From Atriophallophorus winterbourni (Eukaryota; Platyhelminthes; Trematoda; Plagiorchiida; Microphallidae), in the NCBI GenBank assembly GCA_013407085.1, contig JACCGJ010019683.1, positions 1 to 64,000 of the forward strand: DNA of 64,000 bases, given 5' to 3'. The notes under the pieces were generated by a model. The model was not told the origin of the DNA. It made no database searches and worked only from the letters and a program-made list of their open reading frames with translations. This document shows positions 16,820 to 44,242 of this stretch, one piece after another. The translations under genes were made by a program, and so were the position numbers. Position 1 is the first letter of the stretch; the number at the start of each line of letters is the position of its first letter.

Positions 16820-16852
16820 ACAGCAAAACATTCATTACTCCTGCTCCAGGAA
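16820..16852 (+). CDS. Micro-exon 4a (33 nt)
   Basis: The acceptor is CGTTTTTAG|A and the donor is GAA|GTAAGTCAATG. It is symmetric, phase 1 to phase 1, and open in that frame: after the shared first codon it encodes SKTFITPAPG. Phase 1 matches the end of exon 3. It is the most divergent cassette, although flanking intron sequence is almost the same as in the other units. Eleven codons; skipping it would not change the frame. Confidence 0.7.
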
Positions 16853-16998
16853 GTAAGTCAATGAAACCAATCATTGTAGTTAAATAATGATACGTGATTT
16901 ACTGATTGATGTACGGGCGTTCAGTGCAGACAAGTTAGATTCTCGCATTGAATAAATAAGTGGTATACTGGTATTCAAACCGTGGTTTTGTTGCGTGG

Positions 16999-19900
16999 TT
17001 AAAAAAGCAAATTGATGTACAGTACCATATGATATACGTATAAAAAAATAAAAAAAATCGTTATTTGTATGATCATATCCATGGTCTTCATAGGTGGAGC
17101 AAAAATAATCCCCAATTGCGACACAGACTGAGGGAAAAGAATCCTTTTGATGGACGGTAGTACCGTGCGTTAAAAAATATAGACATCAATAGGTAGGGGC
17201 CAACGCAGTTGTTCTCAACATAAGGTTTCGTAACCAATGTTTAGAGATATGCTCGTTCGCTGAGGTAACAATGACTGTCGGCAAGCTATTCCACAAAAAG
17301 CATACACGAACAGCGAAGAAGTGACGACGACAATTCAATCGTGAGTGTGGGATTTGAAGGGTCAAAGGTTGGCTGCGTGTGGGGACAACCGAACCAAACT
17401 TGAAGAGGTGTTTGAGAGGGTGGGATTTCGCGTAGATAATTCGATATGCCAGAGTGAGGTCGTGGAGGATACGTCTGCGCTCGAGGGTGCACAGTCCAAG
17501 TCTGGTCAGTCGCTGCTCAAAGAGTAAATTATTCAATCCGGTAATCATTTGGTTGCCTTGTGATAAATTCGTTCGAGGAGCGAGATGTTTTTTTCCATCC
17601 ATGGCGTGTTAGCTAGTAAACGACAGGATGTATGTAAGTGTTTAGTATTTTCGCGAGTGAGTGTGATGGGAAACGTCAGAAAATGCTTTTCAGTAAACCG
17701 AGCACGTTGCACGCACGCTTGTAGACGGCTTCGCACTGTAGGCTGTTCTTCAAAGTGTCAGACACCCAGATTCCGAGATCTTTCTGTGATGTACTCCATT
17801 CAAGCGGGTGGCTGCCAAGTGTATAGGTAAAGGTAAAGAGTTTTCCGACTTGCAACATTTTGCACTTGCGGAAATTAAATGGCAGTTTGTTTTGAATTGA
17901 CCACTGGTGCAGCTTATTCAAATCTCCTTGCAGAAATTGACAGTCCTCGATAGAGTTGACCTTCGTCCAGATTTTTACATCGTCTGCGAATAAAACAAGC
18001 GTACATGCTAGTAAGTTCGGTAGATCGTTTATAAATATGAGAAACAGTATCGGACCGAGAACCGAACACTGAGGGACTCCGCTCGTGGCTTCAATTGTTC
18101 GAGAAGTTTCACCATCTATTCTGACTTTTACTTTGCGTCTAGACAGGTAACTTGTGAACCATGTTAGTAAGTTTCCGATGACGCCTACATTCTGTAGCTT
18201 CTGAGGCAGTAAGGAGTGATTCACTCTGTCGAATGCGTTAAATATATATAGGTAACCGGCATGGACGGAACCCGCTTGGTCTAGTGCTTGCGTCCAGTCA
18301 TTTAGAGTCGCGAGCAAGTTAAACAGGCATGAATATGTTTACCTAAATCCGTGTTGTGTGAAAGTTATTAGATGATGGTTCTCGAGATGTTCAACAAGTC
18401 GTTCACACACCAGGCGTTCCAAAATTTTAGAAACCGCTGAAAGAAAAAAGCGTCACGGGGCGGTCATTTGTTGGATCAGAACGACTGCCCCCTTTGTAGA
18501 GTGGTATGATAACACCGGTTTTCTATTGATTTGGTACGGTCTGCGTATTCAATGAGTGCCTGAATAGGCCATATAGTGAACCACAAAGCTCCAGCTCGCA
18601 TGCCTTCAGAACAGCAGGTGTTATTCCATCCTCTCCTGGTGATTTGCGAACGTCAGCCCGCGTAAATGCTTTCGCACAACCGCAGGATTTACCTCGATGT
18701 TACTAAGGCATTCGACCTGTAGTGGGCGCGGCAAAGACTTCAGCGATGACACGTTCTTTGGACAAAATACTTGCGCACAAAATGATATTAGGGCATCAGC
18801 TGTATCCTTGACATTATCAGTCAGTCCGTTCTCTGTCTGGATAGGAAATACACCTGGTTCAACCTTGGTCGCGGTATTTACGATGGTTTACAGCAGTTTA
18901 AGATGTCGTTCCATCTGGTCGATCAGCTTCCAATGGTGATATTGCTGGTCTTAAGGACGTCACCTTGTTACGAAAACTACGAAAGTGTTCCCAAGATGCG
19001 TCTGCTCGTGTTATTTTGTGTGCAGCCCATGCGGAATTTCGCATGGCTATCCACTCCCGAGTGCGGCTTCGGAGTTCGAATCAAAAGGTTCTTGATTTCA
19101 TTTTGGGAACACAGGTAGAACTTTCGTCTAGTTTTGTACCGATATAACTTAACAGACTAGAACAATGAGTTTTTGCATTCGTAAGATCGAGATGTTTTTC
19201 CTACATAATCGTAATGGCACTGCGAAGGCCGAGGTGATCGACTCTCCTGATGAACTTAACGTCGCCCGACGCCCTTCTGGCGTTACACACGAATTCGAAG
19301 GACAACACCTGATGGTCACTTAGCCCCAAAGGACTATGATACTGCACTGACTCTACTGCTGTTGCTTCGGAGGTTACAACCAGATCTAGAATTGATGATT
19401 CATTGAGGCATCTTTGTCGAGTGGATGAATGGACATGGTTGTATAGGGTAGTGAAAGTGATTATCTCACGGAATTTGACTCAAGGGATTGCTGAGTATGC
19501 ACACTTTTGGTTTAGAGATGTGGGAGGTTAAAATCGCCTATTATTAACAGTTGGCATCCTCTAAGGTTTCCAGTGTTGCGCATCATTTGTAACAACGTTT
19601 TATTGTGGGTATCGGAAGAGTTAGGCGCGCGGTAGTTCACACCAAGTATACAGTTCTCTCCAGTTTCCAAGCGAAGGTTACACCACATGGTGTCCTCTAG
19701 CTCAAACCCTGTGTCAGGTACAGCTGTGAATTGAAGCCTTTCGTTATAATATAAAGCAATTCCTCCACCTGATGTTCAACGGTCTCGTCGAAGTAGGATC
19801 ATGTTGGGAAGTGCTAGCTCGCAATCGTTCACCTGATCGTAAAACCATGTTTCGGTAACAGCAATAATGTCAGCATAAAACTGAGCGTTAAAATGGGATA

Positions 19901-20385
19901 ATTCGGCGATTTTGTTCCGGAAGCACTGTGCATTTGTGTTTAGGCATTTAACAGTGGTTTTCGTGTGTAGCGATCCTATGCGGATGATGTTTGTATGTCC
20001 GACCCCCTGAGAGCCGGACCATTGCAGTTTTTTGAAACAACTTCGGAGTTTAGTCTGTCCATGTCTTCGCACGGCGTTGCTACAGCTTGTGTTTCGGAGG
20101 CAGCCTTCGGTATGCTGAGTCTGAGGTCATTGGGGATATTTTTCCTGTGTATTTTCCAGTTTTGTCTGACAAAGGCTGTCATAGCAGAAGTTAATAAAAT
20201 GAGTTTTAAAGAGGGTGGTCCATCGCCTTTGTAGTTTGATGACCTCGGTATCCTGAAGGTATTCGCGACAACACTTTCGCGTGCTCCAATCGCTTCTGCA
20301 ACGTATAACCACTGATTATAGTCGTGTTATTGTTGTTTCGCGGCCTCTGTTGTACTGGTATCCTCTGAACAAATTTCCAGTTTTT
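16999..20385 (-). mobile_element. CR1-like LINE (family B), copy in U1
   Basis: Antisense near full-length LINE. Minus-strand segments in order: endonuclease N-part (20072-19776, with VTETWFYDQV), endonuclease C-part with SDHQV near 19300, RT core (18317-17676) and C-terminus (17602-17186). The RT is dead: motif A reads YLYIFNAFDRV, with Tyr where the catalytic Asp belongs, and motif B reads GVPQCSVLGP with Cys for Gly. Motif C FADD is kept. Frames are interrupted. The same lesions recur in the other RT-bearing copies. Confidence 0.85.
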
Positions 20386-21323
20386 TGTTTTGTATTAAGT
20401 ATTGTCATTCTCTGCTGATTCATTGTCATTTTTTCGGCATATTTTCTGTTCGTGAAGTTATCATTTCTCGTGTATCGTTGTAAAAGGGGTGCGAGAACAT
20501 ATTAAACTTTTCCAATGGTGCGGGGAAACAAAAAGTTGTAGAACCATTGGTCTAGTAGAACACGTCACTGTTTTGTACAAGATATGTTAAAATGCGAGCG
20601 TCTAAATACTAAAACTAATGACGTCGTACTGATAATTGTTGATATGATAATTCGATCAAATACATGTGAGCTATCTTATTCCTGATAAAGTTAAATTTGT
20701 ATATTGAGCACCAGTTTGATCAATCGCTGAGAGATTCAGGGAAATTATTATATGCCCAGGGGGGCTGGATTTGTCAACATAACAAGCGACTGTACTTCGG
20801 TGAATATTCATAAACAAAGGGGAATATTTGAGGGAAATACCTGTTTCAGTAGGCTGCAAACATGTAATTTTTTATATGTAGTGGATTTTCAGGTAATTTC
20901 ACGTCGGATCCTATGTAACTAGTCAAATTTATTACCTCGCTGGTCGTATCAAATTCATATTCGCTGATATACAACTTGTCGTGTAATCCAATAATTGAGT
21001 CAATATTTTCTCGGCGATTTGGGAAGTCATTCAATAGACCGTATTGACTTAGCCCGGTGAAGATAAGTTAGTATTCTGTTTCACATGTAAAATGGAATGA
21101 TTTTCGAGACAACGTTGGTTCGCGTACGATGAAAAATATTCATTCTCACATATTTTATCCTTAACTGATCTGTACATGCAAATCAAAGGTGTTTGTTTCC
21201 GGTAAACCTTATATGCAACTGTATGCTGGGGATAGTGTGCTAAAATTTTACTTACCGCATTATATGTATCTGCGCTCGTATACTAAACAATCGATTTGTT
21301 ATTTCGCATTAAAACGTTTTTAG

Positions 21324-21356
21324 TTACCAGAGAACCCATATCTGCTAGTCCAGAAA
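21324..21356 (+). CDS. Micro-exon 4b (33 nt)
   Basis: Acceptor CGTTTTTAG, donor AAA|GTAAGTCAATG. Phase 1/1, open, encoding TREPISASPE after the junction codon. This peptide equals that of 4g; the two differ at one base, in the junction codon. Ser/Thr/Pro-rich. Confidence 0.72.
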
Positions 21357-21539
21357 GTAAGTCAATGAAACTAACCGTTGTACTTTAATAATGATACGTG
21401 ATTTACTGATTGATGTACGGGCGTTCAGTGCAGACAAGTTAGATTCTCGCATTGAATAAATAAGTGGTATACTGGTATTCAAACCGTGGTTTTGTTGCAA
21501 AAAAACTTTAAAAATCTTGATAGCAAAATACTCAATTTA

Positions 21540-21745
21540 AAGAACCATTATTTTAAAATGCTCATTTTTATGCTGTCCCATCACACTTGCACACCTTACG
21601 ACCAGTTTCATGCTGTTTTCACTTATCATCTAAGGGCAGTAGGATCAGGATACTCATTCGCTTTAAACAGTAAAAGAATGGAAAAGAAGTTGCGCCTGTA
21701 TGCCGCTGTTGGATGAGGTTAGAAGAGGTTAATCGTACCAATCTA
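21540..21745 (-). repeat. SINE-like repeat with hammerhead relic (also in U3-U7)
   Basis: About 200 bp beside each micro-exon. On the minus strand a hammerhead-like block is visible: GATGATAAGTG, then CAGCATGAAAC and TGGTC, with stem I partners CCTTA/TAAGG. The core CTGATGA is mutated, so it should be inactive. Equivalent positions: about 26345-26545, 28610-28812, 33425-33620, 38170-38370 and 42930-43130; absent from U1. The 66-76 codon plus-strand frames here fall entirely inside the repeat. Confidence 0.6.
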
Positions 21746-21749
21746 GATT

Positions 21750-24700
21750 TGAGATTCAAGATTCATGGTTAAAAAAGCAAACTGATGTACAGTACCATAT
21801 GATATACGTATAAAAATTAAAAAAAATCGTTATTTGTATGATCATATCCGTGGTCTTCATAGGTGGAGCAAAAATAATCCCCAATTGCGACACAGACTGA
21901 GGGAAAAGAATGCTTTTGATGGACGGTAGTTCCGTGCGTTAAAAAATATAGACATCAATAGGTAGGGGCCAACGCAATAGTTCTCAACCTAAGGTTTCGT
22001 AACCAATGTTTAGAGATATGCTCGTTCGCTGAGGTAACAATGACTGTCGGCAAGCTATTCCACAAAAAGCATACACGAACAGCGAAGAAGTGACGACGAC
22101 AATTCAATCGTGAGTGTGGGATTTGAAGGGTCAAAGGGTGACGACAACAAACTTGAAGAGGTGTTTGAGAGGGTGGGATTTCACGTAGATAATTCGATAT
22201 GCCAGAGTGAGGTCGTGGATGATACGTCTGCGCTCGAGGGTGCACAGTCCAAGTCTGGTCAGTCGCTGCTCAAAGAGTAAATTATTCAATCAGGTAATCA
22301 TTTGGTTGCCTTGTGATAAATTCGTTCGAGGAGCGAGATGTTTTTTTCCATCCATGGCGTGTAAGCTTGTACAGCGTAGTCAACGACAGGATGTATGTAA
22401 GTGTTTAGTAATTTCGCGAGTGAGTGTGATGGGAAACGTCAGAAAATGCTTTTCAGTAAACCGAGCACGTTGCACGCACGCTTGTAGACGGCTTCGCACT
22501 GTAGGCTGTTCTTCAAAGTGTCAGACACCCAGATTCCGAGATCTTTCTGTTATGTACTCCATTCAAGCGGGTGGCTGCCAAGTGTATAGGTAAAGGTAAA
22601 GAGTTTTCCGACTTGCAACATTTTGAACTTGCGGAAATTAAATGGCAGTTTGTTTTGAATTGACCACTGGTGCAGCTTATTCAAATCTCCTTGCAGAAAT
22701 TGACAGTCCTCGATAGAGTTGACCTTCGTCCAGATTTTTACATCGTCTGCGAATGAAACAAGCGTACATGCTAGTAAGTTCGGTAGATCGTTTATAAATA
22801 TGAGAAACAGTATCGGACCGAGAACCGAACACTGAGGGACTCCGCTCGTGGCTTCAATTGTTCGAGAAGTTTCACCATCTATTCTGACTTTTACTTTGCG
22901 TCTAGACAGGTAACTTGTGAACCATGTTAGTAAGTTTCCGATGACGACAACATTCTGTAGCTTCTGAGGCAGTAAGGAGTGATTCACTCTGTCGAATGCG
23001 TTAAATATATATAGGTAACCGGCATGGACGGAACCCGCTTGGTCTAGTGCTTGCGTCCAGTCATTTAGAGTCGCGAGCAAGTTAGACAGGCATGAATATG
23101 TTTTCCTAAATCCGTGTTGTGTGAAAGTTATTAGATGATGGTTCTCGAGATGTTCAACAAGTCGTTCACACACCAGGCGTTCCAAAATTTTAGAAACCGC
23201 TGAAAGAAAAAAGCGTCACGGGGCGGTCATTTGTTGGATCAGAACGACTGCCCCCTTTGTAGAGTGGTATGATAACACCGGTTTTCTATTGATTTGGTAC
23301 GGTCCCCGTATTCAATGAGTGCCTGAATAGGCCATATAGTGAACCACAAAGCTCCAGCTCGCATGCCTTCAGAACAGCAGGTGTTATTCCATCCTATCCT
23401 GGTGATTTGCGAACGTCCAGCCCGCGTAAATGCTTTCGCACAACCGCAGGATTTACCTCGATGTTACTAAGGCATTCGACCTGTAGTGGGCGCGGCAAAG
23501 ACTTCAGCGATGACACGTTCTTTGGACAAAATACTTGCGCATAAAATGATATTAGGGCATCAGCTGTATCCTTGACATTATCAGTCAGTCCGTTCTCTGT
23601 CTGGATAGGAAATACACACGGTTCAACCTTGGTCGCGGTATTTACGATGGTTTACAGCAGTTTAAGATGTCGTTCCATCTGGTCGATCAGCTTCCAATGG
23701 TGATATTGCTGGTCTTAAGGACGTCACCTTGTTACGAAAACTACGAAAGTGTTCCCAAGATGCGTCTGCTCGTGTTATTTTGTGTGCAGCCCATGCGGAA
23801 TTTCGCATGGCTATCCACTCCCGAGTGCGGCTTCGGAGTTCGAATCAAAATGTTCTTGATTTCATTTTGGGAACACAGGTAGAACTTTCGTCTAGTTTTG
23901 TACCGATATAACTTAACAGACTAGAACAATGAGTTTTTGCATTCGTAAGATCGAGATGTTTTTCCTACATAATCGTAATGGCACTGCGAAGGCCGAGGTG
24001 ATCGACTCTCCTGATGAACTTAACGTCGCCCGACGCCCTTCTGGCGTTACACACGAATTCGAAGGACAACACCTGATGGTCACTTAGCCCCAAAGGACTA
24101 TGATACTGCACTGACTCTACTGCTGTTGCTTCGGAGGTTAAAACCAGATCTAGAATTGTTGATTCATTGAGGCATCTTTGTCGAGTGGATGAATGGACAT
24201 GGTTGTATAGGGTAGTGAAAGTGATTATCTCACGGAATTTGTACTCAAGGGATTGCTGAGTATGCACACTTTTGGTGTAGAGATGTGGGAGGTTAAAATC
24301 GCCCATTATTAACAGTTGGCATCCTCTAAGGTTTCCAGTGTTGCGCATCATTTGTAACAACGTTTTATTGTGGGCATCGGAAGAGTTAGGCGAGCGGTAG
24401 ATCACACCAAGTATACAGTTCTCTCCAGTTTCCAAGCGAAGGTTACACCACATGGTGTCCTCTAGCTCAAACCCTGTGTCAGGTACAGCTGTGAATTGAA
24501 GCCTTCGTTATAATATAAAGCAATTCCTCCACCTGATGTTCAACGGTCTCGTCGAAGTAGGATCATGTTGGGAAGTGCTAGCTCGCAATCGTTCACCTGA
24601 TCGTAAAACCATGTTTCGGTAACAGCAATAATGTCAGCATAAAACTGAGCGTTAAAATGGGATAATTCGGCGATTTTGTTCCGGAAGCACTGTGCATTTG

Positions 24701-25135
24701 TGTTTAGGCATTTAACAGTGGTTTTCGTGTGTAGCGATCCTATGCGGATGATGTTTGTATGTCCGACCCCCTGAGAGCCGGACCATTGCAGTTTTTTGAA
24801 ACAACTTCGGAGTTTAGTCTGTCCATGTCTTCGCACGGCGTTGCTACAGCTTGTGTTTCGGAGGCAGCCTTCGGTATGCTGATTCTGAGGTCATTGGGGA
24901 TATTTTTCCTGTGTATTTTCCAGTTTTGTCTGACAAAGGCTGTCATAGCAGAAGTTAATAAAATGAGTTTTAAAGAGGGTGGTCCATCGCCTTTGTAGTT
25001 TGATGACCTCGGTATCCTGAAGGTATTCGCGACAACACTTTCGCGTGCTCCAATCGCTTCTGCAACGTATAACCACTGATTATAGTCGTGTTATTGTTGT
25101 TTCGCGGCCTCTGTTGTACTGGTATCCTCTGAACA
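21750..25135 (-). mobile_element. CR1-like LINE (family B), copy in U2
   Basis: Antisense near full-length copy with a GAATCTT-type tail at its 3' end (about 21750-21768 on the + strand). Endonuclease pieces at 24836-24540 and 24453-23965 include LLIMGDFNLPH, a YRSPNSS block and LGLSDHQVLSFEF. RT at 23185-22550 carries the same motif A Asp to Tyr and motif B Gly to Cys changes as U1. A stop follows HPLEWST. C-terminus at 22245-21955. Non-functional. Confidence 0.85.
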
Positions 25136-26087
25136 AATTTCCAGTTTTTTGTTTTGTATTAAGTATTGTCATTCTCTGCTGATTCATTGTCATTTTTTCG
25201 GCATATTTTCTGTTCGTGAAGTTATCATTTCTCGTGTATCGTTGTAAAAGGGGTGCGAGAACATATTAAACTTTTCCAATGGTGCGGGGAAACAAAAAGT
25301 TGTAGAACCATTGGTCTAGTAGAACACGTCACTGTTTTGTACAAGATATGTTAAAATGCGAGCGTCTAAACACTAAAACTAATGACGTCGTACTGATAAT
25401 TGTTGATATGATAATTCGATCAAATACATGTGAGCTATCTTATTCCTGATAAAGTTAAATTTGTATATTGAGCACCAGTTTGATCAATCGCTGAGAGATT
25501 CAGGGAAATTATTATATGCCCAGGGGGGCTGGATTTGTCAACATAACAAGCGACTGTACTTCGGTGAATATTCATAAACAAAGGGGAATATTTGAGGGAA
25601 ATACCTGTTTCAGTAGGCTGCAAACATGTAATTTTTTATATGTAGTGGATTTTCAGGTAATTTCACGTCGGATCCTATGTAACTAGTCAAATTTATTACC
25701 TCGCTGGTCGTATCAAATTCATATTCGCTGATATACAACTTGTCGTGTAATCCAATAATTGAGTCAATATTTTCTCAGCGATTTGGGAAGTCATTCAATA
25801 GACCGTATTGACTTAGCCCGGTGACGATAAGTAGTATTCTGTTTCACATGTAAAATGGAATGATTTTCGAGACAACGTTGGTTCGCGTACGATGAAAAAT
25901 ATTCATTCTCACATATTTTATCCTTAACTGATCTGTAGATGCAAATCAAAGGTGTTTGTTTCCGGTTAAACCTTATATGCAACTGTATGCTGGGGATAGT
26001 GTGCTAAAATTTTACTTACCGCATTATATGTATCTGCGCTCGTATACTAAACAATCGATTTGTTATTTCGCATTAAAACGTTTTTAG

Positions 26088-26120
26088 TGTCCAGAAACCC
26101 CATATATTCTAGTCCACTAG
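26088..26120 (+). CDS. Micro-exon 4c (33 nt)
   Basis: Acceptor CGTTTTTAG, donor CTAG|GTAAGTCAATG. Phase 1/1, encoding SRNPIYSSPL, open. In phase 0 it would end in TAG, which supports phase 1 as the used frame. Its three differences from 4d inside the exon body are all amino-acid changing (Tyr/Ser, Leu/Glu). Confidence 0.68.
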   Translation, partial: CPETPYILVH

Positions 26121-26171
26121 GTAAGTCAATGAAACTAACCGTTGTACTTAAATAATGATACGTGATTTACT

Positions 26172-26193
26172 AGAAGAAGAAGAAGAAGAAGAA
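26172..26193 (+). repeat. GAA microsatellite
   Basis: A run of seven AGA/GAA triplets, present only in U3. The motif TGATTGATGTAC is duplicated just after it. Confidence 0.85.
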
Positions 26194-26547
26194 TGACTGA
26201 TTGATGTACTGATTGATGTACGGGCGTTCAGTGCAGACAAGTTAGATTCTCGCATTGAATAAATAAGTGGTATACTGGTATTCAAACCGTGGTTTTGTTG
26301 CAAAAAAACTTTAAAAAACTTGATAGCAAAATACTCAATTTAAAGAACCATTATTTTAAAATGCTCATTTTTATGCTGTCCCATCACACTTACACACCTT
26401 ACGACCAGTTTCATGTTGTTTTCACTTATCGTCTAAGGGCAGTAGGATCAGGATACTCATTCGCTTTACACAGTAAAAGAATGAGATAAACGTTGCGCCT
26501 GTATGCCGCTGTTGGATGAGGTTGGAAGTGGTTAATCGTACCAATCT

Positions 26548-27425
26548 AGATTCAATATTCAAGATTCATGGGTAAAAAAGCAACTTGATGTACAGTACCA
26601 TATGATATACGTAAAAAATTAAAAAAACATCGTTGCGCATCATTTGTTACAACGTTTTATTGTGGGCATTGGAAGAGTTAGACGAGCGGTAGATCACACC
26701 AAGTATACAGTTCTCTCCAGCTTCCAAGCGATGGTTACACCACCTGGTGTCCTCTAGCTCAAACCCTGTGTCAGGTACAGCGGTAAATTGAAGCCTTTCG
26801 TTATAATATAAAGCAATTCCCCCACCTGATGTTCAACGGTCTCGTCGAAGTAGGATCATGTTGGGAAGTGCTAGCTCGCAATCGTTCACCTGATCGTTAA
26901 ACCATGTTTCGGTAACAGCAATAATGTCAGCATAAAACTGAGCGTTAAAATGGGATAATTCGGCGATTTTGTTCCGGAAGCACTGTGCATTTGTGTTTAG
27001 GCATTTAACAGTGGTTTTCGTGTTTAGCCATCCTATGCGGATGATGTTTGTATGTCCGACCCCCTGAGAGCCGGACAGTTGCAGTTTTTTGAAACAACTT
27101 CTGAGTTCAATCTGTCCATGTCTTCACACGACGTTGCTACAGCTTGTGTTTCGGAGGTAGCCTTCGGTATGCTGAGTCTGAGGTCATTGAGGATATTTTT
27201 CCTGTGTATTTTCCAGTTTTGTCTGACAAAGGCTGTCATAGCAGAAGTTAATAAAATGAGTTTTAAAGAGGGTGGTCCATCGCCTTTGTAGTTTGATGAC
27301 CTCGGTATCCTGAAGGTATTCGCGACAACACTTTCGCGTGCTCCAATCGCTTCTGCAACGTATAACCACTGTTTATAGTCGTGTTATTGTTGTTTCGCGG
27401 CCTCTGTTGTACTGGTATCCTCTGA
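26548..27425 (-). mobile_element. CR1-like LINE (family B), internally deleted, U3
   Basis: The 3' tail joins directly to the endonuclease region: the + strand runs from the 3' UTR (TTAAAAAAACATCG) into TTGCGCATCATTTG, which lies about 2.5 kb further along in full copies. All of the RT and the endonuclease C-part are gone. The junction has GTT in common between both sides. U4 has the same junction. Confidence 0.85.
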
Positions 27426-28380
27426 ACAAATTTCCAGTTTTTTGTTTTGTATTAAGTATTGTCATTCTCTGCTGATTCATTGTCATTTTTTCGGCATATT
27501 TTCTGTTCGTGAAGTTATCATTTCTCGTGTATCGTTGTAAAAGGGGTGCGAGAACATATTAAACTTTTCCAATGGTGCGGGGAAACAAAAAGTTGTAGAA
27601 CCATTGGTCTAGTAGAACACGTCACTGTTTTGTACAAGATATGTTAAAATGCGAGCGTCTAAACACTAAAACTAATGACGTCGTACTGATAATTGTTGAT
27701 ATGATAATTCGATCAAATACATGTGAGCTATCTTATTCCTGATAAAGTTAAATTTGTATATTGAGCACCAGTTTGATCAATCGCTGAGAGATTCAGGGAA
27801 ATTATTATATGCCCAGGGGGGCTGGATTTGTCAACATAACAAGCGACTGTACTTCGGTGAATATTCATAAACAAAGGGGAATATTTGAGGGAAATACCTG
27901 TTTCAGTAGGCTGCAAACATGTAATTTTTTATATGTAGTGGATTTTCAGGTAATTTCACGTCGGATCCTATGTAACTAGTCAAATTTATTACCTCGCTGG
28001 TCGTATCAAATTCATATTCGCTGATATACAACTTGTCGTGTAATCCAATAATTGAGTCAATATTTTCTCAGCGATTTGAGAAGTCATTCAATAGACCGTA
28101 TTGACTTAGCCCGGTGAAGATAAGTTAGTATTCTGTTTCACATGTAAAATGGAATGATTTTCGAGACAACGTTGGTTCGCGTACGATGAAAAATATTCAT
28201 TCTCACATATTTTATCCTTAACTGATCTGTAGATGCAAATCAAAGGTGTTTGTTTCCGGTAAACCTTATATGCAACTGTATGCTGGGGATAGTGTGCTAA
28301 AATTTTACTTACCGCATTATATGTATCTGCGCTCGTATACTAAACAATCGATTTGTTATTTCGCATTAAAACGTTTTTAG

Positions 28381-31716: not shown

Positions 31717-31982
31717 AGTTGTGAACAGGGATTGACTGTCAAATGTTCAATGTCACGACGATCGGGGAGTTCTTCGCCAATTTTGCTCAATTTAGCTTCA
31801 ATTGAACGAACCAAAATGCGTATTTTCTCCGGTTGAGACAAATACTGTACCAGTCAGAAGACAAGTTGTGATGCGAATTCAATTGAAACGATCCAACTTG
31901 AGCACAGAAACCGAATTGATGCAATTCACGAATTGAGTACTTCTAGCCAAGTTCGAGAAGAATCAAATTCCAAAATAAAAAC

Positions 31983-32556
31983 TGTATTGTCTGTGACGTG
32001 AGTTACGCGTAGTCCACCCGTTTCTTATTTCGATAAATTCAAAATAACGATTGGGATATTCTTCGGTACTGTAATTAACAATAATTACAACAAAAGTAAC
32101 TATACAAACCTTAATTGTATAGGAACGTCACAGCAACAATGGAGCCAAATACTCCAGAATCAAATTCTATTCAAACAAAAGACGACCTGATATAAAAATA
32201 AAAAGAATCGATTTACCAAAATGTCGTCCAAACTTTCTGTGGCAATCAAAAATGACACTCAAAATAGCGTCCAAATTCAAGCAAAATACTGAAGCCCAAA
32301 ATGGCAACCAAATTCCGCAACAATGACCGACAATGGCAGAAACAATAAATTAAAACAAACATTTGACCGAAGGCGTGTACAGAAAAAAATTACAATAACA
32401 GAAATAATTACAAAAAGAAAAGTTTTATATCAAAATACAGTAGGAAATTAAACACAAGCAAAATCTATTACACAAAATTCAGGTTTTGTAACTAGGTTCA
32501 AAATAAAAGGAATGTTGAAGGGAAAGGAAGAATTTCAAACTACTTTAAAACTTACA
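31983..32556 (-). repeat. LTR, 5' copy in element orientation
   Basis: Partner of 30003-30577. Being upstream of Gag on the minus strand it would hold the promoter. The primer-binding site just inside is not clear to me. Confidence 0.88.
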
Positions 32557-33199
32557 CCTGATAAAGTTAAATTTGTTTATTGAGCACCAGTTTGATCAAT
32601 CGCTGAGAGATTCAGGGAAATTATTATATGCCCAGGGGGGCTGGATTTGTCAACATAACAAGCGACTGTACTTCGGTGAATATTCATAAACAAAGGGGAA
32701 TATTTGAGGGAAATACCTGTTTCAGTAGACTGCAAACATGCAATTTTTTATATGTAGTGGATTTTCGGGTAATTTCACGTCGGATCCTATGTAACTAGTC
32801 AAATTTATTACCTCGCTGGTCGTATCAAATTCATATTCGCTGATATACAACTTGTCGTGTAATCCAATAATTGAGTCAATATTTTCTCAGCGATTTGGGA
32901 AGTCATTCTATAGACCGTATTGACTTAGCCCGGTGAAGATTATTTAGTATTCTGTTTCACATGTAAAATGGAATGATTTTCGAGACAACGTTGGTTCGCG
33001 TACGATGAAAAATATTCATTCTCACATATTTGATCCTTAACTGATATGTAGATGCAAATCAAATGTGTTTGTTTCCGGTAAACCTTATATGCAACTGTAT
33101 GCTGTGGATAGTGTGCTAAAATTTTACTTACCGCATTATATGTATCTGCGCTCGTATACTAAACAATCGATTTGTTATTTCGCATTAAAACGTTTTTAG

Positions 33200-33232
33200 T
33201 GACCAGTGAACCCATATCTGCTAGTCCAGAAA
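33200..33232 (+). CDS. Micro-exon 4e (33 nt)
   Basis: Acceptor CGTTTTTAG, donor AAA|GTAAGTCAATG. Phase 1/1, encoding TSEPISASPE, open. In phase 0 it would begin with TGA, again favouring phase 1. One base apart from 4g (Ser for Arg). Confidence 0.72.
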
Positions 33233-33621
33233 GTAAGTCAATGAAACTAACCGTTTAACTTAAATAATGATACGTGATTTACTGATTGATGTACGGGCGT
33301 TCAGTGCAGACAAGTTAGATTCTCGCATTGAATAAATAAGTGGTATACTGGTATTCAAACCGTGGTTTTGTTGCAAAAAAACTTTGAAAAAATTGATAGC
33401 AAAATACTCAATTTAAAGAACCATTATTTTAAAATGCTCATTTTTATGCTGTCCCATCACACTTACACACCTTACGACCAGTTTCATGCTGTTTTCACTT
33501 ATCATCTAAGGGCAGTAGGATCAGGATACTCATTCGCTTTAAACAGTAAAAGAATGGAAAAGAAGTTGCGCCTGTATGCCGCTGTTGGATGAGGTTGGAA
33601 GAGGTTAATCGTACCAATCTA

Positions 33622-36600
33622 GATTCAAGATTCAAAATTCATGTTTAAAAAAGCAAACTGATGTACAGTACCATATGATATACGTATAAAAAATTAAAAA
33701 AATCGTTATTTGTATGATCATATCCATGGTCTTCATAGGTGGAGCAAAAATAATCCCCAATTGCGACACAGACTGAGGGAAAAGAATCCTTTTGATGGAC
33801 GGTAGTTCCGTGCGTTAAAAAATATAGACATCAATAGGTAGGGGCCAACGCAGTAGTTCTCAACCTAAGGTTTCGTTTAGAGATATGCTCGTTCGCTGAG
33901 GTAACAATGACTGTCGGCAAGCTATTCCACAAAAAGCATACACAAACAGCGAAGAAGTGACGACGACAATTCAATCGTGAGTGTGGGATTTGAAGGGTCA
34001 AAGGTTGGCTGCGTGTGGGGACAACCGAACCAAACTTGAAGAGGTGTTTGAGAGGGTGGGATTTCGCGTAGATAATTCGATATGCCAGAGTGAGGTCGTG
34101 GAGGATACGTCTGCGCTCGAGGGTGCACAGTCCAAGTCTGGTCAGTCGCTGCTCAAAGAGTAAATTATTCAATCCGGTAATCATTTGGTTGCCTTGTGAT
34201 AAATTCGTTCGAGGAGCGAGATGTTTTTTTTTCATCCATGGCGTGTAAGCTTGTACAGCGTAGTCAACGACAGGATGTATGTAAGTGTTTAGTAATTTCG
34301 CGAGTGAGTGTGATGGGAAACGTCAGAAAATGCTTTTCAGTAAACCGAGCACGTTGCACGCACGCTTGTAGACGGCTTCGCACTGTAGGCTGTTCTTCAA
34401 AGTGTCAGACACCCAGATTCCGAGATCTTTCTGTTATGTACTCCATTCAAGCGGGTGGCTGCCAAGTGTATAGGTAAAGGTAAAGAGTTTTCCGACTTGC
34501 AACATTTTGAACTTGCGGAAATTAAATGGCAGTTTGTTTTGAATTGACCACTGGTGCAGCTTATTCAAATCTCCTTGCAGAAATTGACAGTCCTCGATAG
34601 AGTTGACCTTCGTCCAGATTTTTACATCGTCTGCGAATGAAACAAGCGTACATGCTAGTAAGTTCGGTAGATCGTTTATAAATATGAGAAACAGTATCGG
34701 ACCGAGAACCGAACACTGAGGGACTCCGCTCGTGGCTTCAATTGTTCGAGAAGTTTCACCATCTATTCTGAATTTTACTTTGCGTCTAGACAGGTAACTT
34801 GTGAACCATGTTAGTAAGTTTCCGATGACGACAACATTCTGTAGCTTCTGAGGCAGTAAGGAGTGATTCACTCTGTCGAATGCGTTAAATATATATAGGT
34901 AACCGGCATGGACGGAACCCGCATGGTCTAGTGCTTGCATCCAGTCATTTAGAGTCGCGAGCAAGTTAGACAGGCATGAATATGTTTTCCTAAATCCGTG
35001 TTGTGTGAAAGTTATTAGATGATGGTTCTCGAGATGTTCAACAAGTCGTTCACACACCAGGCGTTCCAAAATTTTAGAAACCGCTGAAAGAAAAAAGCGT
35101 CACGGGGCGGTCATTTGTTGGATCAGAACGACTGCCCCCTTTGTAGAGTGGTATGATAACACCGGTTTTCTATTGATTTGGTACGGTCCCCGTATTCAAT
35201 GAGTGCCTGAATAGGCCATATAGTGAACCACAAAGCTCCAGCTCGCATGCCTTCAGAACAGCAGGTGTTATTCCATCCTATCCTGGTGATTTGCGAACGT
35301 CCAGCCCGCGTAAATGCTTTCGCACAACCGCAGGATTTACCTCGATGTTACTAAGGCATTCGACCTGTAGTGGGCGCGGCAAAGACTTCAGCGATGACAC
35401 GTTCTTTGGACAAAATACTTGCGCATAAAATGATATTAGGGCATCAGCTGTATCCTTGACATTATCAGTCAGTCCGTTTTCTGTCTGGGTAGGAAATACA
35501 CCTGGTTCAACCTTGGTCGCGGTATTTACGATGGTTTACAGCAGTTTAAGATGTCGTTCCATCTGGTCGATCAGCTTCCAATGGTGATATTGCTGGTCTT
35601 AAGGACGTCACCTTGTTACGAAAACTACGAAAGAGTTCCCGAGATGCGTCTGCTCGTGTTATTTTGTGTGCAGCCCATGCGGAATTTCGCATGGCTATCC
35701 ACTCCCGAGTGCGGCTTCGGAGTTTGAATAAAAAGATTCTTGATTTCATTTTGGGAACACAGGTAGAACTTTCGTCTAGTTTTGTACCGATATAACTTAA
35801 CAGACTAGAACAATGAGTTTTTGCATTCGTAAGATCGAGATGTTTTTCCTACATAATCGTAATGGCACTGCGAAGGCCGAGGTGATCGACTCTCCTGATG
35901 AACTTAACGTCGCCCGACGCCCTTCTGGCGTTACACACGAATTCGAAGGACAACACCTGATGGTCACTTAGCCCCAAAGGACTATGATACTGCACTGACT
36001 CTACTGCTGTTGCTTCGGAGGTTACAACCAGATCTAGAATTGATGATTCATTGAGGCATCTTTGTCGAGTGGATGAATGGACATGGTTGTATAGGGTAGT
36101 GAAAGTGATTATCTCACGGAATTTGTACTCAAGGGATTGCTGAGTATGCACACTTTTGGTTTAGAGATGTGGGAGGTTAAAATCGCCCATTATTAACAGT
36201 TGGCATCCTCTAAGGTTTCCAGTGTTGCGCATCATTTGTAACAACGTTTTATTGTGGGTATCGGAAGAGTTAGGCGCGCGGTAGTTCACACCAAGTATAC
36301 AGTTCTCTCCAGTTTCCAAGCGAAGGTTACACCACATGGTGTCCTCTAGCTCAAACCCTGTGTCAGGTACAGCTGTGAATTGAAGCCTTTCATTATAATA
36401 TAAAGTAATTCCTCCACCTGATGTTCAACGGTCTCGTCGAAGTAGGATCATGTTGGGAAGTGCTAGCTCGCAATCGTTCACCTGATCGTAAAACCATGTT
36501 TCGGTAACAGCGTTAAAATGGGATAATTCGGCGATTTTGTTCCGAAAGCACTGTGCATTTGTGTTTAGGCATTTAACAGTGGTTTTCGTGTGCAGCGATA

Positions 36601-37005
36601 CTATGCGGATGATGTTTGTATGTCCGACCCCCTGAGAGCCGGACCATTGCAGTTTTTTGAAACAACTTCGGAGTTTAGTCTGTCCATGTCTTCGCACGGC
36701 GTTGCTACAGCTTGTGTTTCGGAGGCAGCCTTCGGTATGCTGAGTCTGAGGTCATTGGGGATATTTTTCCTGTGTATTTTCCAGTTTTGTCTGACAAAGG
36801 CTGTCATAGCAGAAGTTAATAAAATGAGTTTTAAAGAGGGTGGTCCATCGCCTTTGTAGTTTGATGACCTCGGTATCCTGAAGGTATTCGCGACAACACT
36901 TTCGCGTGCTCCAATCGCTTCTGCAACGTATAACCACTGATTATAGTCGTGTTATTGTTGTTTCGCGGCCTCTGTTGTACTGGTATCCTCTGAACAAATT
37001 TCCAG
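33622..37005 (-). mobile_element. CR1-like LINE (family B), copy in U5
   Basis: Antisense near full-length copy. Endonuclease N-part at 36697-36425 has a short deletion relative to U2 (HFNAVTETW directly joined). The C-part is at 36151-35849, RT at 35069-34434 with the shared Asp to Tyr and Gly to Cys lesions, and the C-terminus at 34235-33831. Dead. Confidence 0.85.
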
Positions 37006-37948
37006 TTTTTTGTTTTGTATTAAGTATTGTCATTCTCTGCTGATTCATTGTCATTTTTTCGGCATATTTTCTGTTCGTGAAGTTATCATTTCTCGTGTAT
37101 CGTTGTAAAAGGGGTGCGAGAACATATTAAACTTTTCCAATGGTGCGGGGAAACAAAAAGTTGTAGAACCATTGGTCTAGTAGAACACGTCACTGTTTTG
37201 TACAAGATATGTTAAAATGCGAGCGTCTAAATACTAAAACTAATGACGTCGTACTGATAATTGTTGATATGAAAATTCGATCAAATACATGTGAGCTATC
37301 TTATTCCTGATAAAGTTAAATTTGTATATTGAGCACCAGTTTGATCAATCGCTGAGAGATTCAGGGAAATTATTATATGCCCAGGGGGGCTGGATTTGTC
37401 AACATAACAAGCGACTGTACTTCGGTGAATATTCATAAACAAAGGGGAATATTTGAGGGAAATACCTGTTTCAGTAGGCTGCAAACATGTAATTTTTTAT
37501 ATGTAGTGGATTTTCAGGTAATTTCACGTCGGATCCTATGTAACTAGTCAAATTTATTACCTCGCTGGTCGTATCAAATTCATATTCGCTGATATACAAC
37601 TTGTCGTGTAATCCAATAATTGAGTCAATATTTTCTCAGCGATTTGAGAAGTCATTCAATAGACCGTATTGACTTAGCCCGGTGAAGATAAGTTAGTATT
37701 CTGTTTCACATGTAAAATGGAATGATTTTCGAGACAACGTTGGTTCGCGTACGATGAAAAATATTCATTCTCACATATTTTATCCTTAACTGATCTGTAG
37801 ATGCAAATCAAAGGTGTTTGTTTCCGGTAAACCTTATATGCAACTGTATGCTGGGGATAGTGTGCTAAAATTTTACTTACCGCATTATATGTATCTGCGC
37901 TCGTATACTAAACAATCGATTTGTTATTTCGCATTAAAACGTTTTTAG

Positions 37949-37981
37949 TGACCATGGAACTCATAAATGCTAGTCCAGAAA
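37949..37981 (+). CDS. Micro-exon 4f (33 nt)
   Basis: Acceptor CGTTTTTAG, donor AAA|GTAAGTCAATG. Phase 1/1, encoding TMELINASPE, open. Five bases differ from 4g and all change amino acids (Met/Arg, Leu/Pro, Asn/Ser). The change creates an N-glycosylation sequon (NAS). In phase 0 it has two stops. Confidence 0.72.
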
Positions 37982-38371
37982 GTAAGTCAATGAAACTAAC
38001 CGTTGAACTTAAATAATGATACGTGATTTACTGATTGATGTACGGGCGTTCAGTGCAGACAAGTTAGATTCTCGCATTGAATAAATAAGTGGTATACTGG
38101 TATTCAAACCGTGGTTTTGTTGCAAAAAAACTTTGAAAAAATTGATAGCAAAATACTCAATTTAAAGAACCATTATTTTAAAATGCTCATTTTTATGCTG
38201 TCCCATCACACTTACACACCTTACGACCAGTTTCATGCAGTTTTCACTTATCATCTAAGGGCAGTAGGATCAGGATACTCATTCGCTTTACACAGTAAAA
38301 GAATGGGATAAACGTTGCGCTTGTTTGCCACTGTTGAATGAGGTTGGAAGAGGTTAATCGTACCAATCTAG

Positions 38372-41300
38372 ATTCAAGATTAAAGATTCATGGTTAAAAA
38401 AGCAAATTGATGTACAGTACCATATGATATACGTATACAAAATTAAAAAAATCGTTATTTGTATGATCATATCCATGTTCGTCATAGGTGAGGCAAAAAT
38501 AATCCCCAATTGCGACACAGACTGAAGGAAAGGAATCCTTTTGATGGACGGTAGTTCCGTGCGTTAAAAAATATAGACATGAATAAGTAGGGGCCAACGC
38601 AGTAGTTCTCAACATAAGGTTTCGTAACCAATGTTTAGAGATATGCTCGTTCGCTGAGGTAACAATGACTGTCGGCAAGCTATTCCACAAAAAGCATACA
38701 CGAACAGCGAAGAAGTGACGACGACAATTCAATCGTGAGTGTGGGATTTGAAGGGTCAAAGGTTGGCTGCGTGTGGGGACAACCGAACCAAACTTGAAGA
38801 GGTGTTTGAGAGGGTGGGATTTCGCGTAGATAATTCGATATGCCAGAGTGAGGTCGCGGAGGATACGTCTGCGCTCGAGGGTGGACAGTCCAAGTCTGGT
38901 CAGGCGCTGCACAAAGAGTAAATTATTCAATCCGGTAATCATTTGGTTACCTTGTGATAAATTCGTTCGAGGAGCGAGATGTTTTTTTCCATCCATGGCG
39001 TGTCGGCTTGTACAGCGTAGTCAACGACAGGATGTATGTAAGTGTTTAGTAATTTCGCGAGTGAGTGTGATGGGAAACGTCAGAAAATGCTTTTCAGTAA
39101 ACCGAGCACGTTGCACGCACGCTTGTAGACGGCTTCGCACTGTAGGCTGTTCTTCAAAGTGTCAGACACCCAGATTCCGAGATCTTTCTGTTATGTACTC
39201 CATTCAAGCGGGTGGCTGCCAAGTGTATAGGTAAAGGTAAAGAGTTTTCCGACTTGCAACATTTTGCACTTGCGGAAATTAAATGGCAGTTTGTTTTGAA
39301 TTGACCACTGGTGCAGCTTATTCAAATCTCCTTGCAGAAATTGACAGTCCTCGATAGAGTTGACCTTCGTCCAGATTTTTACATCGTCTGCGAATGAAAC
39401 AAGCGTACATGCTAGTAAGTTCGGTAGATCGTTTATAAATATGAGAAACAGTATCGGACCGAGAACCGAACACTGAGGGACTCCGCTCGTGGCTTCAATT
39501 GTTCGAGAAGTTTCACCATCTATTCTGACTTCAAGTTTGCGTCTAGACAGGTAACTTTTGAACCATGTTAGTAAGTTTCCGATGACGCCTACATACTGCA
39601 GCTTCTGAAGCAGTAAGGAGTGATTCACTCTGTCGAATGCTTTAAATATATATAGGCAACCCGCTTGGTCAAGTGCTTTCGTCCAGTCATTTAGAGTCGC
39701 GAACAATTTAGATAGGCATGAATATGTTTTCCTAAATCCGTGTTGTGTGAAAGTTATTAGATGATGGTTCTCGAGATGTTCAACAAATCGTTCACACACC
39801 AGGCGTTCCAAAATTTCAGAAACCGCTGAAAGAAAGAAGCGTCACGGGGCGGTCATTTGTTGGCTCAGAACGACTGCCCCCTTTTTAGAGTGGTATGATA
39901 ACACCCGTTTTCTATTGATTTGGTACGGTCCCGGTATTCAATGAGTGCCTGAATAGGCCATATAGTGAACCACGAAGCTCCAGCTCGCATGCCTTCAGAA
40001 CAGCAGGTGTTATTCCATCCTCTCCTGGTGATTTGCGAACGTCCAGCCCGCGTAAATGCTTTCGCACAACCGCAGGATTTACCTCGACGTTACTAAGGCA
40101 TTCGACCTGTAGTGGGCGCGGCAAAGACTTCAGCGATGACACGTTCTTTGGCAAAATACTTGCGCATAAAATGATATTAGGGCATCAGCTGTATCCTTCA
40201 CATTATCAGTCAGTCCGTTCTCTGTCTGGATAGGAAATACACACGGTTCAACCTTGGTCGCGGTATTTACGATGGTTTACAGCAGTTTAAAATGTCGTTC
40301 CATCTGGTCGATCAGCTTCCAATGGTGATATTGCTGGTCTTAAGGACGTCACCTTGTTACGAAAACTACGAAAGTTTTCCCGAGATGCGTCTGTTCGCGT
40401 TATTTTGTGTGCAGCCAATGCGGAATTTCGCATGGCTATCCACTCCCGAGTGCGGCTTCGGAGTTTGAATCAAAAGGTTCTTGATTTCATTTTGGGAACA
40501 CAGGTAGAAATTTCGTCTAGTTTTGTACCGATATAACTTAACAGACTAGAACAATGAGTTTTTGCATTCGTAAGATCGAGATGTTTTTCCTACATAATCG
40601 TAATGGCACTGCGAAGGCCGAGGTGATCGACTCTCCTGATGAACTTAACGTCGCCCGACGCCCTTCTGGCGTTACACACGAATTCGAAGGACAACACCTG
40701 ATGGTCACTTAGCCCCAAAGGACTATGATACTGCACTGACTCTACTGCTGTTGCTTCGGAGGTTACAACCAGATCTAGAATTGATGATTCATTGAGGCAT
40801 CTTTGTCGAGTGGATGAATGGACACGGTTGTATAGGGTAGTGAAAGTGATTATCTCACGGAATTTGACTCAAGGGATTGCTGAGTATGCACACTTTTGGT
40901 GTAGAGATGTGGGAGGTTAAAATCGCCCATTATTAACAGTTGGCATCCTCTAAGGTTTCCAGTGTTGCGCATCATTTGTAACAACGTTTTATTGTGGGTA
41001 TCGGAAGAGTTAGGCGCGCGGTAGTTCACACCAAGTATACAGTTCTCTCCAGTTTCCAAGCGAAGGTTACACCACATGGTGTCCTCTAGCTCAAACCCTG
41101 TGTCAGGTAGAGCTGTGAATTGAAGCCTTCCATTATAATATAAAGCAATTCCTCCACCTGATGTTCAACGGTCTCGTCGAAGTAGGATCATGTTGGGAAG
41201 TGCTAGCTCGCAATCGTTCACCTGATCGTAAAATCATGTTTCGGTAACAGCAATAATGTCAGCATAAAACTGAGCGTTAAAATGGGATAATTCGGCGATT

Positions 41301-41760
41301 TTGTTCCGGAAGCACTGTGCATTTGTGTTTAGGCATTTAACAGTGGTTTTCGTGTGTAGCGATCGTATGCGGATGATGTTTGTATGTCCGACCCCCTGAG
41401 AGCCGGACCATTGCAGTTTTTTGAAACAACTTCGGAGTTTAGTCTGTCCATGTCTTCGCACGGCGTTGCTACAGCTTGTGTTTCGGAGGCAGCCTTCGGT
41501 ATGCTGAGTCTGAGGTCATTGGGGATATTTTTCCTGTGTATTTTCCAGTTTTGTCTGACAAAGGCTGTCATAGCAGAAGTTAATAAAATGAGTTTTAAAG
41601 AGGGTGGTCCATCGCCTTTGTAGTTTGATGACCTCGGTATCCTGAAGGTATTCGCGACAACACTTTCGCGTGCTCCAATCGCTTCTGCAACGTATAACCA
41701 CTGATTATAGTCGTGTTATTGTTGTTTCGCGGCCTCTGTTGTACTGGTATCCTCTGAACA
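38372..41760 (-). mobile_element. CR1-like LINE (family B), copy in U6
   Basis: Antisense near full-length copy. Endonuclease at 41461-41234 and 41077-40850 (LLIMGDFNLPH), RT N-part at 40154-39912 (KSPGEDGITPAVLKAC), RT core at 39811-39191 and C-terminus at 38996-38394. Motif A reads CLYIFKAFDRV, lacking the catalytic Asp, and motif B has the shared Cys. The frame is broken in the linker and after HPLEWST. Confidence 0.85.
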
Positions 41761-42024
41761 AATTTCCAGTTTTTTGTTTTGTATTAAGTATTGTCATTCT
41801 CTGCTGATTCATTGTCATTTTTTCGGCATATTTTCTGTTCGTGAAGTTATCATTTCTCGTGTATCGTTGTAAAAGGGGTGCGAGAACATATTAAACTTTT
41901 CCAATGGTGCGGGGAAACAAAAAGTTGTAGAACCATTGGTCTAGTAGAACACGTCACTGTTTTGTACAAGATATGTTAAAATGCGAGCGTCTAAATACTA
42001 AAACTAATGACGTCGTACTGATAA

Positions 42025-43520
42025 TTGTTGATATGATAATTCGATCAAATACATGTGAGCTATCTTATTCCTGATAAAGTTAAATTTGTATATTGAGCAC
42101 CAGTTTGATCAATCGCTGAGAGATTCAGGGAAATTATTATATCCCCAGGGGGGCTGGATTTGTCAACATAACAAGCGACTGTACTTCGGTGAATATTCAT
42201 AAAAAAGGGGAATATTTGAAGGAAATACCTGTTTCAGTAGACTGCAAACATGTAATTTTTTATATGTAGTGGATTTTCAGGTAATTTCACGTCGGATCCT
42301 ATGTAACTAGTCAAATTTATTACCTCGCTGGTCGTATCAAATTCATATTCGCTGATATACAACTTGTCGTGTAATCCAATAATTAAGTCAATATTATCTC
42401 TGCGATTTGGGAAGTCATTCAATAGACCGTATTGACTTAGCCCGGTGAAGATTATTTAGTATTCTGTTTCACATGTAAAATGGAATGATTTTCGAGACAA
42501 CATTGGTTCGCGTACGATGAAAAATATTCATTCTCACATATTTGATCCTTAACTGATCCGTAGATGCAAATCAAAGGTGTTTGTTTCCGGTTAACCTTAT
42601 ATGCAACTGTATGCTGGGGATAGTGTGCTAAAATTTTACTTACCGCATTATATGTATCTGCGCTCGTATACTAAACAATCGATTTGTTATTTCGCATTAA
42701 AACGTTTTTAGTGACCAGAGAACCCATATCTGCTAGTCCAGAAAGTAAGTCAATGAAACTAACCGTTGTACTTAAATAATGATACGTGATTTACTGATTG
42801 ATGTACGGGCGTTCAGTGCAGACAAGTTAGATTCTCGCATTGAATAAATAAGTGGTATACTGGTATTCAAACCGTGGTTTTGTTGCAAAAAAACTTTGAA
42901 AAACTTGATAGCAAAATACTCAATTTAAAGAACCATTATTTTAAAATGCTCATTTTTATGCTGTCCCATCACACTTACACACCTTACGACCAGTTTCATG
43001 CTGTTTTCACTTATCATCTAAGGGCAGTAGGATCAGGTTACTCATTCGCTTTACACAGTAAAAGAATGGGAGAAACGTTGCGCTTGTATGCCACTGTTGA
43101 ATGAGGTTGGAAGAGGTTATTCGTAACAATCTATCCAATAGCGAAAAACAGGCACACCTTGTTAATCTATAACGGTATTTATCTATTGCCATTCACGTAT
43201 TATAGGGTTTCCCAACCAGAATTGCTAGCACTGATTGGGCATATGAGACAGCATTCTATGGGGCGCGAGACAAATTTCCACTTTGTATTAAGTATTGTCA
43301 TCCTCCGCTGATTCATTGTCATTTTTTCGGCAAATTTTATGTTCGTGAAGTTATCATTTCTCGTGTATCGTTCTAAAAGGGGTGCGAGAGCATATTAAAC
43401 TTTTCCAAGGGTGCACGGAAAAAAAAGTTGTAAAATCACTGGTCCAGTGGAACACGTCATTGTTTTGTACAAGATATGTTAAAATACGTGCGTCTAAACA
43501 CTGAAACTAATGTCGTCGTA
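42025..43520 (+). repeat. Micro-exon duplication unit U7 (no LINE)
   Basis: It has the leading segment, micro-exon 4g, the SINE-like repeat and the trailing segment (from about 43270), but no LINE. Where the LINE stands in other units there are about 150 bp of unrelated sequence (43115-43268). This may be the pre-insertion state. The trailing part is more diverged from its counterparts than the rest. Confidence 0.8.
42712..42744 (+). CDS. Micro-exon 4g (33 nt)
   Basis: Acceptor CGTTTTTAG, donor AAA|GTAAGTCAATG. Phase 1/1, encoding TREPISASPE, open. It is the last of the seven cassettes and leaves in phase 1, as required by the exon at 43559. Confidence 0.72.

Positions 43521-44240: not shown

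Positions 44241-44242
<2 letters not shown>

Follow-up and report, generated by a model that had tools for sequence, protein, structure and literature searches.

The micro-exon array and its host gene

The window analysed here is a stretch of 64,000 nucleotides (nt) from the genome of the trematode Atriophallophorus winterbourni (positions 1 to 64,000 of contig JACCGJ010019683.1, which is C12102 in the 537-Mb, 15,840-contig assembly that we searched). It contains a predicted gene in which seven 33-nt micro-exons lie in tandem, and these exons differ from one another far more than the sequence around them. An earlier reading of the letters alone (the sequence-only reading) had placed seven segments of exactly this length in identical splice-site contexts, one per duplicated unit, and all seven were recovered in place (Table 1). 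Each is bounded by the acceptor string CGTTTTTAG and the donor string GTAAGTCAATG, neither of which occurs again on either strand of the whole window; the chance expectation for the 20 fixed flanking bases is about 6e-8 per 64 kb. Self-comparison identifies the units as true tandem duplicates, with an exon spacing of 2.3-4.8 kb and an identity that is mostly 95-98% (91-93% in comparisons with the flank of copy 1 itself). They also carry long interspersed nuclear element (LINE) sequence, as had been proposed, with LINE domains present in the one unit scanned. The phase-1/1 frame is open in 7/7 copies, the frame that starts at the first base has stops in four of the seven, and the remaining frame has stops in six. 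If all seven copies were joined, 35 of the 77 residues would be serine, proline or threonine.

In three paralogous loci we could read the interval from exon 3 to the 36-nt exon IELKDGRAFFVM, the two exons that flank the array, and each locus has a 33-nt, phase-1/1 micro-exon at the same place. There is one on contig C4318, one on C5240 (read by eye from the sequence), and five identical copies in tandem on C13262. These micro-exons have related splice sites, the same length, an open phase-1/1 frame and diverged peptides. The seven segments are very probably real exons, and the call is firm because the paralogues carry the same 33-nt micro-exon, not because the frames are open. The flanking exon ends at 14060 and 43559, both assigned to phase 1 by the sequence-only reading, are likewise backed by paralogues, and its description of symmetric cassette exons within a single host gene agrees with the paralogous exon structure.

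Exon 3 has ten paralogous matches in the genome besides itself and its counterpart on contig C3369, at 37-46% protein identity, and its acceptor and donor are conserved in the three loci whose borders were inspected (L028, L032 and C4318). Comparison of the window contig with C13262 revealed a conserved 223-nt exon further downstream, with 14 genome matches including itself and boundaries conserved in 6/6 loci compared. Seven other contigs (C14198, C5838, C8881, C5240, C7448, C13262 and C8432) carry it after exon 3, with the strand unchanged and at a distance of about 5 to 29 kb; on the remaining matching contigs, only one of the two exons was matched. Since their order and strand are the same across contigs, the two exons belong to one gene family. 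A scan for exons that lead from phase 1 to phase 0 between 43594 and 61235 gave three phase-fitting candidates, 47964-48055, 48841-48944 and 57303-57415, and the last was rejected on account of frame stops and a missing donor in the aligned C13262 sequence. No clear exon was seen after 61457 among the blocks conserved between the window contig and C13262.

Exons 1 and 2 are predicted from sequence reading and from conservation in C3369. The candidate exon 1 is the most hydrophobic of four start-codon candidates given by a loose scan of 3001-13880, and a stricter scan gave none. Exon 2 was chosen by eye, and a scan with a donor threshold listed no candidate. The two are the same in C3369 at 52/52 and 101/101 bases, which makes no change in 153 nt where the aligned region is 97.2% identical (P = 0.014). 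Exon 2 was not found within at most about 1.5 kb upstream of exon 3 at nine paralogous loci, or within 10 kb upstream of exon 3 in C13262. A 31-base partial match to the exon 1 region in C13262 (E 4e-4) encodes a peptide unlike a signal sequence.

The predicted protein begins with the hydrophobic stretch MKFICCLLILLPSLNQC, identified by a hydropathy scan, and is probably secreted. The joined exons had no Pfam match. Alignments of two exons compared with Pfam gave three weak, unrelated matches (E 0.04-0.17) in one case and none in the other. No worthwhile PDB relative was found by sequence search, nor any protein relative in general protein searches, which score only length-matched candidates sharing exact words. 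An NPC2 or MD-2-related lipid-recognition (ML) domain in exons 2-3, suggested by eye from the cysteine spacing, was dropped for want of Pfam or PDB sequence support. Single-sequence structure prediction gave beta strands only, with low confidence, both for exon 3 (mean predicted local distance difference test score, pLDDT, 61) and for the downstream exon (mean pLDDT 47). Because of this low confidence, our placement of the micro-exon segment as a variable loop between two beta strands is a guess.

Three repeats lie within or beside the gene. A 241-bp tandem repeat of 4.2 copies (2961-3969) stops 135 bases short of the predicted start codon, and a 257-bp tandem repeat of 4.9 copies with 98% matches (7566-8821) lies in the presumed intron 2. 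Neither has a match of at least 150 bases in C3369 33000-73272, which aligns from 3975 on. Inside one cassette unit, at 30003-32559, a 578-bp direct repeat pair (96.2% identical) that resembles long terminal repeats (LTRs) encloses about 1.4 kb with minus-strand frames. One of these frames matches DUF1759 weakly, under the curated cut-off, which we take to be as in BEL/Pao elements.

Table 1. Predicted exons and the cassette array in the window, and related arrays on other contigs
Feature	Location	Strand	Basis and remarks
Exon 1 (predicted)	4104..4155	+	Start codon, signal-peptide-like hydrophobic stretch; ends in phase 1; donor GTAAGT
Exon 2 (predicted)	5304..5404	+	101 nt, phase 1 to 0; consistent phases and GT-AG boundaries
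Exon 3	13880..14060	+	181 nt, phase 0 to 1; paralogous matches
Tandem cassette-unit array	16139..43133	+	Self-comparison; exon spacing 4504, 4764, 2293, 4819, 4749 and 4763 bases
Micro-exon copy 1	16820..16852	+	Peptide DSKTFITPAPG; identical in C3369; ends resemble paralogous micro-exons
Micro-exon copy 2	21324..21356	+	Exact pattern and contig comparison
Micro-exon copy 3	26088..26120	+	Exact pattern and contig comparison
Micro-exon copy 4	28381..28413	+	Exact pattern and contig comparison
Micro-exon copy 5	33200..33232	+	Exact pattern and contig comparison
Micro-exon copy 6	37949..37981	+	Exact pattern and contig comparison
Micro-exon copy 7	42712..42744	+	Exact pattern and contig comparison
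36-nt exon	43559..43594	+	Phase 1 to 1; same exon in C4318, C5240 and C13262 (in C13262 read by eye from sequence)
Downstream conserved exon	61235..61457	+	223 nt, phase 0 to 1; comparison with C13262
Paralogous array (L039)	C13262:87146-90584		Five identical 33-nt micro-exons, units of about 850 bp
Multi-copy cassette array	C7448:19560-26555		Flank search match only
Multi-copy cassette array	C10675:11212-16913		Flank search match only
Multi-copy cassette array	C2451:13392-16958		Flank search match only

Divergence of exon copies and of their flanks

A genome search with the exact micro-exon pattern gave 11 matches, seven on the window contig and four on C3369, and a search with 311 bases of cassette flank gave 12 places, again seven on the window contig and five on C3369. 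C3369 aligns to positions 10613-16994 of the window at 99.0% identity, and then through the array to its own end. It is most likely the other haplotype, judging from the alignment; a recent duplication is the alternative. Its exon spacing of 4729, 2294, 4809 and 4749 bases before the contig end would fit an array that is shorter by one 4.7-kb unit near its start, and the contig holds at least five array copies. Both the number of units near the start of the array and the exon sequence differ between the presumed haplotypes. Three of the four presumed allelic pairs differ at 5 exon sites each and one at none, with flank differences of 3-20 in 537; pooled, the exons differ at 15/132 sites and the flanks at 37/2148.

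For the divergence tests we set aside copy 1 of either contig, an older divergent copy whose exon differs from the others at 14-20 of 33 sites and whose flanks have also diverged, and we excluded gapped flank columns from column counts and pairwise means. Among the ten derived cassettes on the two contigs, 14/33 exon columns vary, compared with 28/537 flank columns (Fisher P 4.6e-9, a value that, like the other Fisher values, overstates the contrast and serves as a guide only, the copies being related and the columns non-independent). Averaged over pairs, the exon differs by 14.7% and the flank by 1.7% among all ten copies, by 17.0% and 1.7% among the six window copies, and by 10.6% and 1.4% among the four C3369 copies. 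For example, window copies 2 and 3 differ at 9/33 exon sites and at 7/960 flank sites. The 94 bases directly upstream of the exon contain no variable ungapped column, and the acceptor and donor strings are unchanged in 11/12 copies across both contigs. The changes nearly all alter the peptide: the proportions of nonsynonymous and synonymous differences (pN and pS) are 0.204 and 0.010, respectively, over 28 pairs of 8 copies, a set from which two C3369 copies with a duplicate exon were dropped and in which two of the kept copies still share one exon sequence.

The five-copy array on C13262 serves as a control. None of its 33 exon columns varies, a zero that is not significant alone, compared with 29/535 flank columns and a flank mean of 2.5%. 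Set against the window-type array, the contrast in exon columns is 14/33 to 0/33 (P 2e-5, for ten copies compared with five). Using the C13262 cassette flank as a query, we located at least 31 places on 15 contigs: five on C13262, six on C7448, five on C10675, three on C2451, two on C15355, and one on each of ten others. The C15355 pair lies 31 kb apart on opposite strands and so forms no array, and the contigs in this list probably include some haplotype pairs. Separate origins are probable for the window array and the C13262-type arrays, because their unit length and sequence differ. The host gene appears to belong to a fast-evolving family in which some members are single-copy and others have arrays of their own. 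The excess of exon over intron divergence, the differences in array content between contigs and the membership in a gene family are additions to what the sequence-only reading had described.

A proposed mechanism and its alternatives

The explanation that we favour, and think probable on the sequence evidence, is that the array is a set of diversified tandem micro-exons in a fast-evolving gene for a secreted protein, any subset of which can be joined to give a segment variable in both length and sequence. As part of this explanation, and with the same degree of assurance, diversifying selection on the peptide would have left its mark on the exon copies. Each of the three paralogues has a 33-nt micro-exon, encoding 11 residues, between exon 3 and the 36-nt exon. 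In this gene the micro-exon, together with several kilobases of intron, would have been duplicated in tandem to seven copies, after which the introns would have stayed nearly identical as the exon copies gained many amino-acid-changing differences. With phase 1 at both ends of every copy, splicing could join any subset in register, and the result would be a segment of 0-77 residues with varying sequence. The sequence itself shows the anatomy, the exons of the paralogues, the surplus of exon divergence and the contrast between contigs; from it we infer expression, secretion and variable inclusion, and likewise that the selecting force may be the host or another binding partner.

The main rival, which we consider unlikely, is that the copies are mutually exclusive, with exactly one 11-residue segment per transcript, as in Dscam. 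It would fit C4318 and C5240, whose exactly one 33-nt exon points to a fixed segment length, and copies of different sequence make sense as alternatives. On the other hand, phase 1/1 enforces no exclusivity, and the five identical copies on C13262 leave nothing to pick; variation in repeat number fits them better. We place variable inclusion first, since number is all that a sister array of identical copies can vary. Less likely still would be a passive origin, in which only copy 1 or no copy is used and unequal crossing-over between LINE-rich introns has left copies 2-7 as by-products. LINE sequence is indeed present in the units, whose identity is mostly 95-98%, the openness of all the frames is not significant, copy 1 is the one whose ends are like those of paralogous micro-exons, and exon 3 of C3369 is broken. 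Unused exons should diverge like introns, yet these differ about nine times more on average, almost only by amino-acid-changing substitutions, and with acceptor and donor strings fixed in 11/12 copies. We regard it as very improbable that the exon differences stem, without selection, from local hypermutation or from conversion of tiny tracts out of unseen donor cassettes. That the differences end sharply at the upstream border of the exon would suit such a process, and there are too few synonymous sites to exclude a mutational cause firmly, but the flank search finds no cassette beyond this locus and C3369 (donors with other flanks would escape it), and the C13262 array has no exon variation.

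Several observations weigh against diversified micro-exons with variable inclusion, in addition to the limits on the Fisher values and on the control array given above. The sequence-only reading had described the reading frames correctly, but the force that it drew from them is small: when one open copy was duplicated and randomly mutated in simulation, all copies were still open in 43% of runs (P = 0.43), and for this reason we reject the open frames as proof of coding and give them little weight. When the introns are left aside, the deficit of synonymous changes is modest and no more than suggestive (0-1 of at least 16 changes; P(<=1 of 16) 0.06-0.08). The micro-exons of C13262 and C5240 differ at 3/33 sites, compared with about 14% over the surrounding 230 bases, and thus show no excess. 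In the comparison of contigs, the pair 33200/65047 has no exon difference, one exon sequence is common to three of the four derived copies on C3369, and one C3369 copy has the altered donor context GTAAATC. In exon 3 of C3369 (C3369:50274-50453, L027), four substitutions and the deletion of one base fall within 53 bases and create an in-frame stop before the array. Over 1,400 bases there are eight differences, and these make up five of them. Either the C3369 haplotype would be null for the array or the assembly would be wrong there. Regarding the gene model, exons 1 and 2 are its weakest part, because strict splice-site scans listed neither, and the interval from 43594 to 61235 must contain at least one further exon that leads from phase 1 to phase 0, which leaves the downstream frame incomplete.

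Known systems and neighbouring elements

The sequence-only reading had likened the array to those of parasitic flatworms, and it does resemble the schistosome polymorphic mucins and micro-exon genes (MEGs). In the account of Roger et al. (2008; PMC2576457), the Schistosoma mansoni polymorphic mucins (SmPoMuc), proteins of the parasite-snail interaction, have a signal peptide and a varying number of tandem units of about 1 kb, each with a symmetric 27-bp exon 2 and homogenised introns that are over 94% identical. Tandem units with one short symmetric exon each and near-identical introns are also what we find here. The units are longer in our gene (2.3-4.8 kb, compared with about 1 kb), and the repeat of 33 nt or 11 residues follows exon 3, whereas the 27-bp exon and its 9-residue repeat come directly after the signal-peptide exon 1 in SmPoMuc. 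The two SmPoMuc clusters analysed in that account have one exon type each (r1 or r2; a supplement legend lists some variant repeats). In the window array most of the copies are different, and the exons differ more than the introns. The same account gives SmPoMuc genes an intronic hammerhead ribozyme; no Rfam match reached the gathering score in the window, beyond which the gene may extend.

Schistosome MEGs have many short symmetric exons, and the available accounts give several of them a high ratio of nonsynonymous to synonymous substitution rates (dN/dS) (PMC4350168, PMC10526429). Our gene shares with MEGs, as characterised in these and related sources (PMC4350168, PMC10526429, PMC4413821, PMC5825161), very short symmetric exons, the lack of a known domain and a flatworm host, along with changes that nearly all alter the peptide, comparable to the high dN/dS of several MEGs. 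MEGs also have a signal peptide, for which the hydrophobic N-terminus here is a candidate. In one such source (PMC5825161), searches of Fasciolidae or Opisthorchidae transcript databases are reported to have found no relatives of MEG-4, -8 and -9. Symmetric exons whose lengths are multiples of three, of about 3-81 nt, are typical of MEGs, and the seven 33-nt exons and the 36-nt exon, all in phase 1/1, are of this kind. The coding region of MEGs consists mostly of micro-exons; here, among the exons identified, they amount to 267 nt, compared with 505 nt (101+181+223) in longer exons. By analogy, the host gene may work like SmPoMuc and MEG genes, and it lacks features of each.

Tandem clusters of alternative symmetric coding exons are found in arthropod Dscam, where the choice is mutually exclusive. 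The tandem arrangement and symmetry are like those of the window array; the Dscam exons are far longer and their choice is exclusive. S. mansoni MEG-4 (Sm10.3) is said to have tandemly repeated 81-base exons, a report attributed to Davis et al. in 1988. Going by the title of that paper, it resembles our gene in having tandemly repeated exons within one gene, of 81 nt there and 33 nt here.

A literature search that combined Paragonimus with micro-exons returned, by title, only schistosome papers, and literature searches brought up no report of an array whose exons outpace its introns, with poor coverage of subscription journals. In the present array the variation is carried by the exon and not by the intron, and a sister array of like intron divergence provides the control. 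This raises the question of whether one fluke gene makes many protein versions, with selection acting on the choice, and suggests that such genes exist beyond the blood flukes in which they were first described. As put in a 2014 review, parasitic worms seem to be without classical antigenic variation, and MEGs are among the candidates (PMC4413821). Taken jointly, our results could describe a parasite's splice-driven hypervariable segment, in which tandem alternative micro-exons, individually under diversifying selection and different between haplotypes, sit between two possible beta-strands of a secreted protein and yield many sequences and lengths per worm, in a family that has repeatedly built arrays at the same exon, some uniform and some diversified. 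We offer this joint picture tentatively, as one that is rather doubtful in its entirety.

Two retroelement remnants or frames lie towards the ends of the window. An open reverse-transcriptase frame of 530 codons occupies 1135-2727, and its best named relatives, from a search in which 8,000 candidates were scored, are from Paragonimus westermani (65-69% identity). The next named relatives among the 120 listed are records from the stork Mycteria americana (35-42%) and from the flatworms Dicrocoelium, Spirometra/Sparganum, Schistosoma and Trichobilharzia (40-47%). Judged by this one transposon, the genome would most probably be that of a digenean close to Paragonimus. On the minus strand, a fragment of a reverse-transcriptase RNase H domain at 62146-62667 is likely the remnant of an LTR retrotransposon.

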